Shown here: positions 2,397 to 8,947 of the stretch, piece after piece
Position numbering within the stretch: the first letter of the stretch is position 1
Layout of the letters: the number at the start of each line of letters is the position of its first letter
Assembly (NCBI GenBank): GCA_015657435.1
Contig: JADLKH010000002.1
Coordinates: forward strand, 84,321-93,267
DNA length: 8,947 nucleotides
Direction of reading: 5' to 3'
DNA from: Synergistales bacterium
GTDB lineage: Bacteria > Synergistota > Synergistia > Synergistales > 79-D21
Made by a program: the position numbers and the translations under genes
The notes under the pieces: model-generated
Databases searched by the model: none
Told to the model about the DNA's origin: nothing
The model's input: the letters and a program-made list of their open reading frames with translations, nothing else

Positions 2397-3038
2397 CTAA
2401 AGGCGTCCGGCAGCGATCCTGCGTAGGCGCTCCCAGGCCTCGCCGGAAAGACCCCACAGCGGGACTTCCCGGTTGTAGATCGAAGGATTGCCGAATCCGG
2501 CAAGGAAACCGTTCACACGGGCGGCGGCGGTCGAATCGACGAAGGCACGTTCGTCGGGGAACCGGTCCCGGAAGGCCTTCATCAGGAAAGGATCCAGCCG
2601 CAGACGATATTTCTGATGGAAACTCTCGGCCCGGTTAAAACCCGAGTAGGGAACGATCTCCGTGACCAGGGGGCGTCGATGGATCTCGACAAGGCGCCCC
2701 TCGCTTGTCCTGGCTTCGTCTTCCTGGGCGACGGAATGCACGAAGATCAAGGAAGCGTATTGGCGGGACCACGCCGCTTCAGTCGGAGCGTGGGATTCCC
2801 AGAAAACCTCCAGAAGTCGTCCGTAAGGAATGATCCCCGGATCGAAATCGATCTGGACCGATTCCGAATGGTCGCCGAGATCATGATATGTAGGGTTCGG
2901 GCTAGTTCCCCCCGTGTAACCGACGCGCGTTCTGACAACTCCATCGAGACTCCCGAACCGGGCGTCGGGACCCCAGAATCAGCCGAGTGCGAACGTTGCG
3001 GTTTGCAGTCGGTCCTCACCTTTTCTTCCTGTCGTCAC
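2397..3038 (-). CDS. msrA: Selenocysteine-containing peptide methionine sulfoxide reductase A (UGA-interrupted)
   Basis: MsrA reduces the S-form of methionine sulfoxide in proteins and free methionine. In one continuous frame the sequence reads TATFALG, UGA, FWGPDARFG, then VGYTGG, NPTYHDLGDHSESV, FWESHAPTE, SRQYASLIFVH and ESFHQKYRL, all recognisable MsrA blocks. The UGA (2979-2981) falls exactly on the catalytic Cys of GCFWG, so I read it as selenocysteine at residue 20 of 213. The Tyr of GYTGG and the Glu of HSESV, known active-site positions, are present. The block between HAPTE and RQY is shorter than in E. coli MsrA, as in a divergent MsrA subgroup. There is no cysteine anywhere in the protein. 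The start is GTG 3038 with AGGAG 10 nt upstream, overlapping the ygiQ end by 23 nt; CTG 3008 is an alternative. Without recoding, only a useless 117-residue fragment (from TTG 2750) would be called. A pseudogene or a read error (TGC to TGA) is the main alternative. Confidence 0.85.
2948..2966 (-). promoter_or_regulatory. Candidate bacterial SECIS hairpin in msrA
   Basis: On the msrA mRNA, bases +13 to +31 after the UGA can fold as GAC/GUC, one G-A mismatch, then CCCG/CGGG closed by the loop GUU (+21 to +23, positions 2958-2956). Bacterial SECIS elements lie inside the coding region just after the UGA and show a G and U at the start of a small apical loop recognised by SelB; position and loop fit this. 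A competing helix UCCCGA/UCGGGA (+9-14 with +23-28) with an 8-base loop containing GGU is also possible. The fold was done by eye and the sequence is GC-rich, so some pairing is expected by chance. Confidence 0.55.
2979..2981 (-). other. In-frame UGA, predicted selenocysteine codon of msrA
   Basis: The plus strand has TCA here, TGA on the coding strand. It is preceded by GGC (Gly19) and followed by TTC TGG GGT (Phe-Trp-Gly), so it replaces the nucleophilic cysteine of the family's GCFWG motif. It is the only stop in this frame between the GTG at 3038 and the TAG at 2397-2399. Confidence 0.83.
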
Positions 3039-4908
3039 GTTCCCTCTTCTCCTTTTGCCTGACCCTATTCCTTGCGACCGATCCGCCGGGGGAAACTCCT
3101 CTCGGGCGGACCAGGCAACGGGAGCCAAGGCCGACGAGGTCCTGTCGCCCGGCTCTTTCAAGGGCTTCCCTGACAAGGTCGACGTTCTTCGGATCCCTGT
3201 ACTGAAGGAGAGCCCGCTGGAGTCTTTTTTCGTGTGCGCTTCTTGCCACGAAAACTTTCTCTCCCGTGAGGGGATGGATTCCCGTGTAATACATGCAGGT
3301 CGAAAGCGTCCCTGGAGTCGGGATGAAATCCTGAACCTGCTCGGGGTGAAGCCCCGTGTCACGCAAGAACTCGGCCAACTCGACCGCTTCCCTCAGACCC
3401 GCCCCCGGGTGGCTTGACATGAAATAAGGCACGAGATACTGCTCTTTTCCCAGCCTCAGGTTTACACGCCTGTAAGCCTCCGCGAACTCGAGGTAGGCCT
3501 CCTTGCCGCTTTTGCTCATCAGATCGGTCACTTTCCGCGACACGTGCTCGGGTGCGATCTTGAGCTGTCCGCTGACATGGTGTTCGCAAAGCTCGGTCAG
3601 AAAAGGCTCCACCTCTCCATCGAGAAGATAGTCGTACCGGATCCCCGATCGGACAAACACTTTCTTGACCCCGGGCAGGGCCCGGATCGCCCGGAGGAGA
3701 TCAAGGTAGTCGGAATGGTCCGTGTCAAGCTTGGGGCAGGCTTTTGAACCCAGGCAGTCCCTTCCCCTGCAGGTTCCCCGTTGAAGCTGGCCTTCGCAGG
3801 ACGGGTGCCGGAAGTTCGCCGTCGGTCCCCCCACGTCATGAATATAGCCCTTGAAGCCGGGCATTTTCGTCAGCAGAACCGCTTCTTTCAGCAGAGACGC
3901 CTTGCTTCGGGGCTGGATGATCCTCCCCTGGTGCGAGGTGATGGCACAAAAGCTGCAAGCCCCAAAACACCCCCGGTGACTGACCAGGCTGAACTGGACC
4001 TCCTGGATCGCCGGGACTCCGCCTTCGGGCGCGTAATCCGGATGGGCGGCCCGCACATAGGGAAGGTCGTAGATCGAATCGAGTTCAGGTGTCGTCAGGG
4101 GCCTTGCGGGCAGGTTCTGGACGACCCATCTCGGGCCATGGGCCTGCAGGATGGTTTTCCCCCGGATCGGATCCTGCTCCAGGTAGAACAGCCGAAACGC
4201 CTCCGAGAACGCCTCCTTTGAAGTCAGCACGGACTCGAAAGAGGGCAGTTCAACGGACTCGCCCCAGACTTCGTCTCTTTCTGAAGCCATCCAGCAGGTG
4301 CCGGATACGTCCCGGATGTCCCCGGAACGGATTCCCAAGTCCAATTGGCGGGCGATCTCCACGATCTGCAACTCCCCCATGCCGAAAACGAGCAGATCCG
4401 CTCCGCTGTCCACCAGGATCGAACGGCGGACGGCATCATCCCAGTAGTCGTAATGGGCAAACCGCCTTAGGCTCGCTTCGATTCCGCCGATCACCAGGGG
4501 GATGTTGCCCATCGCCTGACGAATCCGGTTGCAGTAGGCAATTGTAGCCCTCTCCGGCCGCCGGCCCGCGCGGTTTCCGGGCGAGTAGCTGTCCGTGTGA
4601 CGGCGTTTCTTTGCCGCTGTGAAGGTGTTCAGCATCGAATCCAGGTTTCCGGCGGACACGAGCACTCCCAGCCTTGGTCGTCCCATTGCAAGGAAAGCCT
4701 CCGGGGATCGGTAGTCTGGCTGGGCTAGAATCCCGACCCGGTAGCCCTCCCGCTCCAGGACCCTGGCGATGATCGCGTGGCCAAAACTCGGATGATCCAC
4801 GTAGGCATCCCCGCTGACCACCAGAAAATCGAGTTCGCCCCATCCCCGGATCTCCATGTCCTGCCTGCAGACCGGGAGAAAGGCCTCCCGTGCCGTCGCC
4901 TTGCTCAT
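3016..4908 (-). CDS. ygiQ: YgiQ family radical SAM protein
   Basis: This is a radical S-adenosylmethionine enzyme of the YgiQ/UPF0313 family; the reaction is not established. The 630 residues are a full-length, uninterrupted protein, somewhat shorter than E. coli YgiQ. The N-terminal part (FLVVSGDAYVDHPSFGHAII, then GYRVGILAQPDY) is the family-specific domain. The iron-sulfur motif is HRGCFGACSFC, with C314, C318 and C321 in the CX3CX2C spacing typical of this family. A further Cys-containing stretch (TCRGRDCLGSKACPKL) and the blocks IAPEHVS, YFMSSHPGAG and QDFIPTPGTLSTCMYYTG are also YgiQ hallmarks. The last 30 or so residues are strongly basic. I took ATG 4908 rather than the longer start at 4956 because it overlaps the upstream stop as ATGA and gives the expected N-terminus. 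The msrA start lies inside its last codons. Confidence 0.95.
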   Translation of the reverse strand: MSKATAREAFLPVCRQDMEIRGWGELDFLVVSGDAYVDHPSFGHAIIARVLEREGYRVGILAQPDYRSPEAFLAMGRPRLGVLVSAGNLDSMLNTFTAAKKRRHTDSYSPGNRAGRRPERATIAYCNRIRQAMGNIPLVIGGIEASLRRFAHYDYWDDAVRRSILVDSGADLLVFGMGELQIVEIARQLDLGIRSGDIRDVSGTCWMASERDEVWGESVELPSFESVLTSKEAFSEAFRLFYLEQDPIRGKTILQAHGPRWVVQNLPARPLTTPELDSIYDLPYVRAAHPDYAPEGGVPAIQEVQFSLVSHRGCFGACSFCAITSHQGRIIQPRSKASLLKEAVLLTKMPGFKGYIHDVGGPTANFRHPSCEGQLQRGTCRGRDCLGSKACPKLDTDHSDYLDLLRAIRALPGVKKVFVRSGIRYDYLLDGEVEPFLTELCEHHVSGQLKIAPEHVSRKVTDLMSKSGKEAYLEFAEAYRRVNLRLGKEQYLVPYFMSSHPGAGLREAVELAEFLRDTGLHPEQVQDFIPTPGTLSTCMYYTGIHPLTGEKVFVARSAHEKRLQRALLQYRDPKNVDLVREALERAGRQDLVGLGSRCLVRPRGVSPGGSVARNRVRQKEKRERDDRKKR

Positions 4909-5993
4909 AGGAAGATCCTGACGACTTCCACGGCGATCAGGATGATGATGATCCATTCCAGGACCTCCGCCCTCCGGCTTGTGAACTCCTGGTTCAGCAG
5001 CTCGACCGTTTCCCGCATCGCTCTTAGTTTCTCATCCATGCGGTTCAGCCATGCCTTTGTCCGAAAGAGCTGAAGGGCTCGATTGTAGATCTGGGCGTAA
5101 TAGACATCCTCCGTCACTCGGACCGCCGACGTCAGATGGTCGGTCATGAGTTCGGTCTCGAGGATCAGTTGCATTGCGGTCCGTGCGATACGGCTCATTT
5201 TGCCCGAGAAAACCGAGGTCACTCCCCACCGGGTTTCCCCGAGATCCTTGAAAAGCCTCTCAAGCCGTCGGTTCAACAGGTCGTCATAATAGCGCGCCTC
5301 GAGAAGCTGGACGTTGGCGTACTCGAGCAGAAGGCGAAGGTCCGCATAATCCCCTTCTTCCACAAGGAAGGCGTTGTTGTAGTTGAGGATCACCAGATCA
5401 TCCGCCGTGTAGGAAAAGGCATTTTCCAGGGCCAGGTGCGCCTGCTGGCGACTCAGGGGCTTTTTTTCCCCGAAAATGAGACGAATCAGGGCCGGAAGCT
5501 CTCGAAGATCGCTTTTCGTAACCGGTTCTGAAGTCTTTCGGACCACGTACAAGGTGTACTCCTCCGAAAACCGGGCTGCTTCCCGCCGATCCACCAGGGT
5601 TTCCGAAACGGAATCCATCAGCGTGCGCAGTTCGTTCTCGAACAGGCGGTCAAGGTCCGGCCCCAGGCTCATCTGGACCGCACGGTCCGTGAATTGGTCC
5701 AAGTCCAGGTCTTTCAGCGTTGCCGTGGCTCCCAGCGAGATCACCCCGAAATCGAAGAACCGCGCCGAGAGATGGACCTCGACGCGTTCCCCGCCGACTA
5801 CCCAGGACTGCGGTCCGAGTTCCACGGCGGAAGGGGGGCGCACCAAGTCGATGGACTGGTTGTCGACCCTGACCAGTCCCTGCCTGAACGGCAGCCTTCC
5901 CGAAAACAGATTGCCGGAAAGCCTGTCAAGGCGGATCTCATCCGCCACGTCATAAAGTCGAAGGAAAACGATATCGGCCGTTTCAATGAACAT
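4905..5993 (-). CDS. RMD1/DUF155 family membrane-anchored protein
   Basis: The 362-residue protein resembles the RMD1/YagE (DUF155) family, whose molecular function in bacteria is not known; eukaryotic members are mitochondrial. Supporting blocks are the central ALENAFSYTADDLVILNYNNAFLVEEGD, the region LLLEYANVQLLEARYYDDLL, and the C-terminus SRRAEVLEWIIIILIAVEVV. A single hydrophobic segment at about 345-362 is the only membrane span, so the bulk should be soluble and tail-anchored. Helices before the anchor are rich in charged residues and probably form a coiled coil. The start is ATG 5993 with AAGGGGGAAG about 8-10 nt upstream. It is the first gene of the minus-strand operon and overlaps ygiQ by 4 bases, suggesting coupling. 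The family call is good; no function is proposed. Confidence 0.82.
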   Translation of the reverse strand: MFIETADIVFLRLYDVADEIRLDRLSGNLFSGRLPFRQGLVRVDNQSIDLVRPPSAVELGPQSWVVGGERVEVHLSARFFDFGVISLGATATLKDLDLDQFTDRAVQMSLGPDLDRLFENELRTLMDSVSETLVDRREAARFSEEYTLYVVRKTSEPVTKSDLRELPALIRLIFGEKKPLSRQQAHLALENAFSYTADDLVILNYNNAFLVEEGDYADLRLLLEYANVQLLEARYYDDLLNRRLERLFKDLGETRWGVTSVFSGKMSRIARTAMQLILETELMTDHLTSAVRVTEDVYYAQIYNRALQLFRTKAWLNRMDEKLRAMRETVELLNQEFTSRRAEVLEWIIIILIAVEVVRIFL

Positions 5994-6885: not shown

Positions 6886-7671
6886 GTGGCTCAAACGAAC
6901 CAGCCCTTGATCGTTGTCGATAACCTCTGCAAGAGCTTCGAACAGGGGGAGGTGCTGAACCGCATCAGCATCTCCATTCGAGAAGGAGACCTTGTATCCA
7001 TCATCGGTCCCTCCGGTTGCGGCAAGTCCACGTTTCTCCGTTGCCTCAACTGTCTGGAAATCCTCGATTCGGGAACCATCTCGATCGCAGGGGTCGCCGT
7101 TTCCCGTAAGGGACCGGAGGATCCCATCACCGACGAACTTCTCAACAAGGCGCACCTGCTCAGACAGGAAGTCGGGCTGGTGTTCCAGATCTTCAACCTG
7201 TTTCCCCACAAATCCGTCCTCGAAAACATCATGCTCGCGCCGATGGTGGTCAAGAAGGAAAGCCGCGAGCAGGCCGAAGAAAATGCCGTCCGGCTCCTGA
7301 AAAAGGTGGGCCTGGAAGACTGCATTCACCGCGATCCTGGAACTCTTTCGGGAGGGCAGAAACAGAGGGCGGCCATCGCACGGGCTCTCGCAATGAACCC
7401 CAAGGTCATGCTTTACGACGAACCCACTTCCGCCCTTGATCCGGAGTTGGTCAAGGAAGTCCTCCAGGTTATGCGCGACCTCGACGCAGAGGGGATGACC
7501 CAAATCGTCGTGACTCATGAAATGCGCTTCGCTCGGAAGGCCTCGGACTATATCGTCTTCATGGACAAGGGTGAAATCGTCGAGGTGGATGACGGAGACA
7601 TCCTGTTCACCAATCCGAAAAACGAGCGGACCCGGGAGTTTTTGAGACACTTCGAGGGGGATGCCCTATGA
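6886..7671 (+). CDS. Polar amino acid ABC transporter ATPase, GlnQ-like
   Basis: This is the cytoplasmic ATPase of a polar amino acid (glutamine/glutamate/histidine/arginine type) importer. Motifs are Walker A GPSGCGKST (41-49), the family-typical Q-loop VFQIFNLFPH, the signature LSGGQKQR (154-161), Walker B VMLYDEP (174-180), the D-loop SALDPE and the H-loop H211 in VVTHEMRFA. The 261 residues are slightly longer than average because of about 15 extra residues (KGPEDPITDELLNKAHL) before the Q-loop. The start is GTG 6886 with a purine-rich GGGGGGAG 6-8 bases upstream; no better ATG exists. The end overlaps the next gene by ATGA, so both proteins should be made together and form one transporter. 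The precise substrate cannot be read from the sequence. Confidence 0.93.
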   Translation: MAQTNQPLIVVDNLCKSFEQGEVLNRISISIREGDLVSIIGPSGCGKSTFLRCLNCLEILDSGTISIAGVAVSRKGPEDPITDELLNKAHLLRQEVGLVFQIFNLFPHKSVLENIMLAPMVVKKESREQAEENAVRLLKKVGLEDCIHRDPGTLSGGQKQRAAIARALAMNPKVMLYDEPTSALDPELVKEVLQVMRDLDAEGMTQIVVTHEMRFARKASDYIVFMDKGEIVEVDDGDILFTNPKNERTREFLRHFEGDAL

Positions 7672-8947
7672 GACGGAAAATGAAAATCCTGCTGTTTTCC
7701 CTCCTCCTGGTCCTCTTCGCAGCCTTCCCTTCAATCGCCTCGGAGCAGGAGCTCCGTTGGGGAGGCGATACCGAGGGCGGTGCCCCCTACATGTTCCAGG
7801 ACCCGAAAGACACGACAAAGATCATCGGCTACGAAGTCGAGATCATCGAAGCCATCGCGAAACAATTGGGCCGAAAACCGGTATTCGTGCAGAACGGATG
7901 GGACAACCTGATCCCGGGTCTTCAGCGCAAGCTTTACGACGTCACGCTGGACGGGCTGGAAATCACCCCTGAACACAAGCAGGAGGTCAACTTCTCCATC
8001 CCCTACTACGCCACGTTCCTTCAGCTTGCTGTCAGGCGGGACAACAAAACGATCGAAACCCTGGAAAACTGCCGCGGCAAAATCGTCGGAACCCTGAAGC
8101 AGGCCTACTCCCATCAGGTGCTCGAAGAATTCGGGGGTATCGAAATCCGCCTTTACGAGGACGAGATCAACGCCTACAGCGACCTGGTCAACGGTCGCCT
8201 GGACGCGACCCTGTTCGACGCTCCCATCGCCGTCTTCTATGCGGGATTCAACCCTGAAATCAAGTTCGTCGGCCCGGAAATCGGCCGGATGGAATACGGG
8301 ATCGCCATCCGGAAGGAAGACACCGAACTCCTGAAAGACATCAACGGAGCACTGGTGGCCTTACGGGACAGCGGAGAACTTCGGCGGATCTACGACCGAT
8401 GGAACCTCTGGAGCCCGATGATGGCCAAGGAATTCAACGACTACAGCCCACGCAAGGTCGACGCCGTCATGTTCAACGAATGGGCCGAACAGCAGAAACC
8501 CGAATTCACGTTTAAGGACCGGATGAAGCGTTATGCAAGCTTCATGCCCGTCCTGGGCAAGGCCGCCGTTACGACCATGAAGGTTTCCATCGTGGCGATG
8601 CTCCTGGCGATGGCTTTCGGCTTCGTCCTTGCCGTCGCCAGAGTTTTCGGCCCCACATTCCTCTCGCATATCGCGGTGGCCTACATCGAAACGATCCGTG
8701 GAACCCCGGTGCTGATCCAGCTATTCTTCATCTTCTACGGCTTGCCGAACATCGGGATCAAGCTCTCCCCCTTCCTGGCCGGTGCCGTCGGACTGGGGCT
8801 GAACTACGCCGCCTACGAAGCCGAGAACTACCGGGCCGGGCTGATTTCCGTCCCCAAAGCCCAGATGGAAGGGGCCCTGGCCCTGGCGATGACACGCTGG
8901 CAGGCCCTGCGCCATGTCGTCATCCCGCAAGCCTTCCGGCTTGTGCT
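7668..8947 (+). CDS. Fused amino acid-binding protein and ABC permease (3' end outside window)
   Basis: The frame starts at ATG 7668, overlapping the ATPase stop, and stays open to the window edge (426 complete codons). It opens with a signal peptide (MRRKMK, a hydrophobic run, SIAS before EQ at about 25). A family 3 solute-binding domain follows at about 28-255: GYEVEIIEAIAKQLG from residue 54, the segment around SIPYY (110), and a DLVNGRLDATLFD block. After a linker, a permease domain begins near 299 with a membrane helix (VSIVAMLLAMAFGFVLAVA), then the signature ETIRGTPVLIQLFFIFYGLP of polar amino acid permeases. The EAA loop starts at E401; it reads EGALALAM where many relatives have EAA and a conserved Gly, a mild deviation. 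Binding protein and channel are thus on one chain, as in GlnP-type importers, so with the preceding ATPase the transporter needs only two genes. Confidence 0.9.
   Translation, partial: MRRKMKILLFSLLLVLFAAFPSIASEQELRWGGDTEGGAPYMFQDPKDTTKIIGYEVEIIEAIAKQLGRKPVFVQNGWDNLIPGLQRKLYDVTLDGLEITPEHKQEVNFSIPYYATFLQLAVRRDNKTIETLENCRGKIVGTLKQAYSHQVLEEFGGIEIRLYEDEINAYSDLVNGRLDATLFDAPIAVFYAGFNPEIKFVGPEIGRMEYGIAIRKEDTELLKDINGALVALRDSGELRRIYDRWNLWSPMMAKEFNDYSPRKVDAVMFNEWAEQQKPEFTFKDRMKRYASFMPVLGKAAVTTMKVSIVAMLLAMAFGFVLAVARVFGPTFLSHIAVAYIETIRGTPVLIQLFFIFYGLPNIGIKLSPFLAGAVGLGLNYAAYEAENYRAGLISVPKAQMEGALALAMTRWQALRHVVIPQAFRLV

Follow-up and report, generated by a model that had tools for sequence, protein, structure and literature searches.

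An 8,947-nucleotide stretch of DNA from a Synergistales bacterium (assembly GCA_015657435.1, contig JADLKH010000002.1; the whole stretch is called the window below) carries on its minus strand, at positions 2397 to 3038, a gene for methionine sulfoxide reductase A (msrA) with an in-frame UGA at its catalytic codon. Based on sequence comparison, we consider it very likely (probability roughly 0.95) that this UGA is decoded as selenocysteine (Sec) by the host machinery, aided by a predicted selenocysteine insertion sequence (SECIS) downstream, and that the product is a one-Sec methionine-S-sulfoxide reductase of the type represented by CoMsrA from Clostridium oremlandii (for which we take Alkaliphilus to be an alternative genus name). 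The frame, read from 3038 to 2397, starts with GTG and comprises 214 codons including its stop (213 codons plus TAG), and its sole internal stop is the TGA of codon 20 (2979 to 2981, minus strand), which lies within G-U-F-W-G at the catalytic Cys position of the GCFWG motif and aligns with CoMsrA residue 16. An earlier note on this DNA had described a single TGA placed exactly on the nucleophilic Cys, with MsrA sequence on either side and no other lesion in 213 codons, and the frame, the Pfam match, and the structural matches all agree with that description.

Read through the UGA, the predicted protein matched the Pfam family PMSR (PF01625) over residues 13 to 145 (E 2.1e-35; 122.7 bits versus a cut-off of 23.7) and scored 110.3 bits against TIGR00401, above its cut-off of 108.1. 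In a comparison with PDB the best chains were MsrAs, with residues 9 to 206 aligning gap-free in the printed alignments; the fold alignment comprised the window protein and 26 of 120 listed relatives. Bacterial Sec-MsrA has already been characterized biochemically and structurally, according to the available parts of PMC4333827 and PMC4479559. The window protein and CoMsrA (PDB 4lwj, 4lwk, 4lwl, 4lwm, and 4u66) are similar over their full length of about 210 residues and share Sec at GUFWG (predicted in the window), the lack of any Cys, a C-terminal helical domain, and the active-site Tyr, Glu, Gln, Tyr, His, and Tyr at aligned positions (Y51, E59, Q93, Y94, H141, and Y144 in the window protein, in addition to G-UGA-F-W-G), whereas they are 41 to 43% identical and belong to different phyla. 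With the border transferred from CoMsrA residues 1 to 144, the catalytic domain comprises residues 12 to 148 (2595 to 3005, minus strand), and residues 149 to 213 (2400 to 2594, minus strand) form the counterpart of the helical domain at CoMsrA residues 145 to 209, which the available part of PMC4333827 describes. Canonical MsrAs with two or three Cys residues (E. coli, bovine, and Mycobacterium) have the fold of the catalytic domain in common with the window protein but possess a resolving Cys (PMC4479559) and lack a CoMsrA-like helical domain (PMC4333827), as far as the accessible parts of these papers describe them; the window protein has no Cys besides the UGA residue and hence no resolving Cys. 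Cys-form one-Cys MsrAs from Haloarchaea, Salinibacter relatives, Halanaerobium, and others belong to the same subfamily and can be aligned over most of their length, with the catalytic Cys standing alone in the aligned stretch in 63 of 77 loci, but their catalytic codon is TGT or TGC. Residues 8 to 111 of the frame (window 2397 to 3038, minus strand) also gave a weak match to NF041383, a model of VPGUxxT thioredoxin-like (seleno)proteins, at 36.8 bits, far under the cut-off of 275.

The UGA is conserved among relatives. Across 149 genomes of the order, host genome included, an MsrA match was found in 72, and the best match had a single TGA as its sole stop in 23 of these and none in the remaining 49, which are mostly MsrAs of greater distance. 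The 23 included every one of the five genomes of the genus (the host and four others), with TGA at the same codon. In a nonrandom sample of 110 loci, made up of 30 from the order's genomes and the best 80 of 158 relatives, 26 loci had TGA at the catalytic codon (24 distinct, L024 being the same as L051 and L025 as L052 over the 60 nucleotides compared), 56 had TGT, 25 had TGC, and 3 had a codon for Ser. The three Ser loci (L047, L048, and L049, from G125, G145, and G139, respectively) are MsrA homologs of the order with AGT, TCT, or AGC in a FALGSFQ or FGMGSFL context. Downstream of the TGA, the proportion of synonymous differences between same-genus pairs (0.26 to 0.67) exceeded that of nonsynonymous differences (0.05 to 0.20), indicating that this part of msrA is under purifying selection; the comparison covers the sequence after the UGA, the first 19 codons being too few and too variable for judgement.

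A TGA could also stand in an msrA frame because the gene is a pseudogene, was sequenced incorrectly, or recently acquired a nonsense mutation, and the host assembly does contain ambiguous bases and, elsewhere, a broken SelA frame. We nevertheless regard this explanation as very improbable. Since four other genomes of the genus carry exactly one TGA at the same codon, its position is not due to chance, and the identical codon recurs in 24 distinct loci overall. The earlier note had named near relatives with additional frameshifts and stops as a refutation, but the near relatives keep the UGA and a second stop is absent from all 24. Furthermore, both the purifying selection after the TGA and the constraint on the hairpin described below argue against decay. 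A comparably small chance attaches to the UGA being a true stop that yields a 19-residue peptide, followed by a shorter C-terminal protein starting independently downstream. In-frame start codons are available there and are used by gene callers. Such a fragment, however, would be missing the catalytic residue together with the opening strand of the fold (E12-18), even though 24 of 24 Sec-form loci retained F16 and G19 ahead of the UGA as well as the FWG that follows it, and there would be no evident reason for a hairpin at SECIS distance to be kept.

Gene callers lose the active site of these proteins, as had been anticipated. The database relative P0008 is a 117-amino-acid fragment with 97% identity to the window's own fragment, and among the ten database relatives read, seven (P0002 to P0007 and P0092) start 3' of the UGA, P0009 shows Trp at the catalytic site (GWFWG), and P0013 shows Cys. 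The Trp of P0009 is probably a UGA that the gene caller translated as Trp. With seven of ten relatives starting beyond the catalytic residue and the version in the window itself reduced to 117 amino acids, this gene is a clear example of standard annotation losing a likely working enzyme.

The host genome (2.68 Mb in 6 contigs, 85.6% complete) contains the selA, selB, selC, and selD genes that the earlier note had predicted, with the qualification that the SelA frame is broken. A tRNA-Sec with anticodon tca scored 74.5 bits and was the only one of 15 matches above the family cut-off, SelB scored 371.7 bits, and SelD scored 342.9 bits and itself has one in-frame TGA in the context TSG-U-AAK. 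SelA scored 489.5 bits over positions 1 to 372, with positions 377 to 453 continuing in a different frame. Other UGA-containing genes, for which a search had been suggested, were also present, with in-frame UGA at known Sec sites in SelD, GrdA, and GrdB: both host GrdA matches have one TGA (context CFV-U in L153), and five of six full-length GrdB matches (L146 to L151) have an in-frame TGA in a U-G[ST]CTRC context. Least credible of all is that UGA is read genome-wide as Trp or Gly, as though the GWFWG of P0009 were taken at face value, since TGA terminates four of the eight window genes checked, the YgiQ gene overlapping msrA among them, and is therefore not a general sense codon, since the catalytic residue would then be Trp or Gly whereas the best 80 of 158 relatives show 77 Cys codons and 3 TGA at this site, and since the host has the Sec gene set.

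A candidate bacterial SECIS (bSECIS) hairpin, GAC-G-CCCG-GUU-CGGG-A-GUC, lies at 2948 to 2966 on the minus strand and consists of a 4-bp upper stem, a G.A mismatch, and a 3-bp lower stem (-8.3 kcal/mol). Its 3-nucleotide loop, GUU, is spaced 20 nucleotides from the UGA, and the hairpin lies within the limits given in the available part of PMC13188914 (loop of 3 to 9 nucleotides, G within the first two positions of the loop, spacing of 16 to 37 nucleotides, upper stem of 4 to 16 bp, and -7.5 kcal/mol or lower). Because folding the region as a single sequence was uninformative, giving a stability like that of shuffles (z -0.62), the hairpin was judged by comparing 24 distinct UGA genes with 76 distinct Cys-form genes (of 77 loci). 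At eight hairpin positions, a mean of 6.4 pairs formed in the UGA genes versus 3.0 in the Cys-form genes; the upper stem was complete, with all four of its pairs, in 21 of 24 versus 6 of 76. Synonymous codon redraws of the UGA genes gave a mean of 4.24 pairs, with the highest of 1,000 means at 4.96. In addition, the loop was GTT and the Gly codon of the 3' arm was GGG in 23 of 24 UGA genes each, the pair between columns 19 and 31 alternated between U-A (10) and G-C (7), and cells with a double change numbered 9 overall, compared with 4.0 after shuffling (0 of 500 shuffles as high). Two other structures were considered. Pairing of TCCCGA with TCGGGA is of nearly equal stability in the window (plain form, -8.0 kcal/mol), but relatives do not conserve this structure, and the hairpin at columns 16 to 34 was therefore preferred. 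The RNAalifold consensus was set aside as the element, as it pairs the UGA codon and shows no double changes. A scan of the window against Rfam gave no match at gathering score, and at a lax E-value positions 2880 to 3000 yielded just two rows, both far under gathering scores.

Several observations nonetheless weigh against a selenoprotein with a well-defined SECIS. Apart from the shuffle-like stability noted above, RNAalifold favored that other structure on the 45-nucleotide region, the window hairpin contains a G.A mismatch, and the codon-redraw test on the window alone gave a p of 0.032. In the fixed register, -7.5 kcal/mol is attained by just 15 of the 24 hairpins. The worst fit was L037, with three of eight pairs; at minimum energy it folds into a shifted hairpin of 6 bp (-10.2 kcal/mol) whose loop, AGGUUC, has G at the second position. 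Covariation support is mixed, with two of five measures and a +1 slide opposing a clean SECIS claim: there were 2 pairs with a double change, compared with 1.2 after shuffling (115 of 500 shuffles as high), and 4 further pair types, compared with 3.7 (283 of 500 as high), and a shift of the 3' side by +1 gave 10 double-change cells versus 9, although the share of cells paired was then 47.9% versus 79.7%. As for the machinery, the reading frame of the host SelA is interrupted near residue 373 (L133, G000:C5:111000-115600). Since an ambiguous base N adjoins the break and SelA is whole in three other genomes of the genus (G001, G002, and G004), the break is probably an assembly fault. The co-occurrence of SelA with UGA-MsrA (21 of 23 genomes versus 90 of 126 others; one-sided p 0.033) is weak evidence because SelA is common across the order, and of the two UGA-MsrA genomes without SelA above cut-off, G003 (56% complete) had no match and G020 a partial one. 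Finally, the UGA site was not seen on inspection of the GrdB match L149. In the assembled sequence, the first SelA part of L133 stays open into SelB, giving a single frame of 1,107 codons.

Should Sec be incorporated, Sec-tRNA bound by SelB would insert it at the UGA, and the selenolate would then attack methionine-S-sulfoxide to give a selenenic acid. As the protein has no resolving Cys, we propose that a glutaredoxin-like partner may reduce the selenenic acid back, as reported for CoMsrA. The accessible parts of PMC4333827 and PMC4479559 describe CoMsrA as reduced by glutaredoxin and not by thioredoxin, and its Sec form as far more active than its Cys form. A CPWC glutaredoxin gene is present in the host genome. 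Identical 94-amino-acid glutaredoxin frames occur at G000 C5:796-975 and C5:29688-29867, and an equal-score GrdA pair occurs at G000:C3:27440-27880 and C6:202747-203187, which suggests duplicated segments or assembly duplication.

The relationship between the Sec and Cys forms was explored with a quick-method tree of 104 proteins, comprising 25 Sec forms (CoMsrA included), 76 Cys forms, and 3 outgroup proteins (L044, L045, and L050); L046 to L049, the duplicates L051 and L052, and one identical Cys protein were excluded. The five genus members formed a Sec clade (Shimodaira-Hasegawa-like approximate likelihood ratio test support, 100), Sec forms occupied several near-basal places, archaeal and other Cys forms fell in nested groups, and CoMsrA was placed with Bacillota Cys forms, on a long branch. 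Five Sec/Cys state changes suffice under parsimony. Because the method was quick and support was below 80 on 43 of 101 inner branches, the tree does not fix the direction of change; the pattern is compatible with Sec-to-Cys replacement but is not proof of it. We put forward only tentatively, as a scenario somewhat short of even odds, that one-chalcogen MsrA was first a selenoenzyme of anaerobes such as Synergistaceae and their order, that halophilic archaea, Salinibacter relatives, and Halanaerobium have Cys-only MsrAs descended from it by Sec-to-Cys exchange with no gain of a resolving Cys, and that the window gene is a surviving Sec form of the ancestral type.

Since the Sec-MsrA family of bacterial selenoproteins is already known and selenoproteins are known to abound in Synergistota (PMC13188914, PMC9312934, and PMC12013277, in the parts available), the window gene is a well-supported further case of a known kind and not a new kind. 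The earlier note had called such proteins known but uncommon: the first part holds (PMC4333827 and PMC4479559, in their available parts), but the case is less exceptional than it had been rated, as 23 of the order's 149 genomes have a UGA-MsrA. In the partial literature collection searched, we found no paper describing Sec-MsrA in Synergistaceae, and we do not claim that the finding is unpublished. These results extend Sec-MsrA, structurally characterized in Clostridium, to a genus of Synergistaceae and to those 23 genomes. In addition, the conserved hairpin offers material for SECIS models, and natural Sec and Cys variants of one-chalcogen MsrA offer a test of the advantage of Sec over Cys.

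The msrA gene is preceded by a gene for a YgiQ-family radical S-adenosylmethionine protein (3016 to 4956, minus strand; 833.5 bits), which ends in TGA and overlaps the msrA start by 23 nucleotides, and is followed by a convergent L,D-transpeptidase-like gene; both neighbors were found in five of five genomes of the genus. A possible ribosome-binding site, AAGGAG (3049 to 3054, minus strand), is located 10 nucleotides 5' of the GTG, within the end of the upstream gene. A 362-amino-acid frame at 4905 to 5993 (minus strand) overlaps the YgiQ gene at its 5' end and had no Pfam or NCBIfam match at E 0.001. At 7668 to 8945 (plus strand), family 3 solute-binding and ATP-binding cassette permease domains are joined in one frame that runs past the window end.
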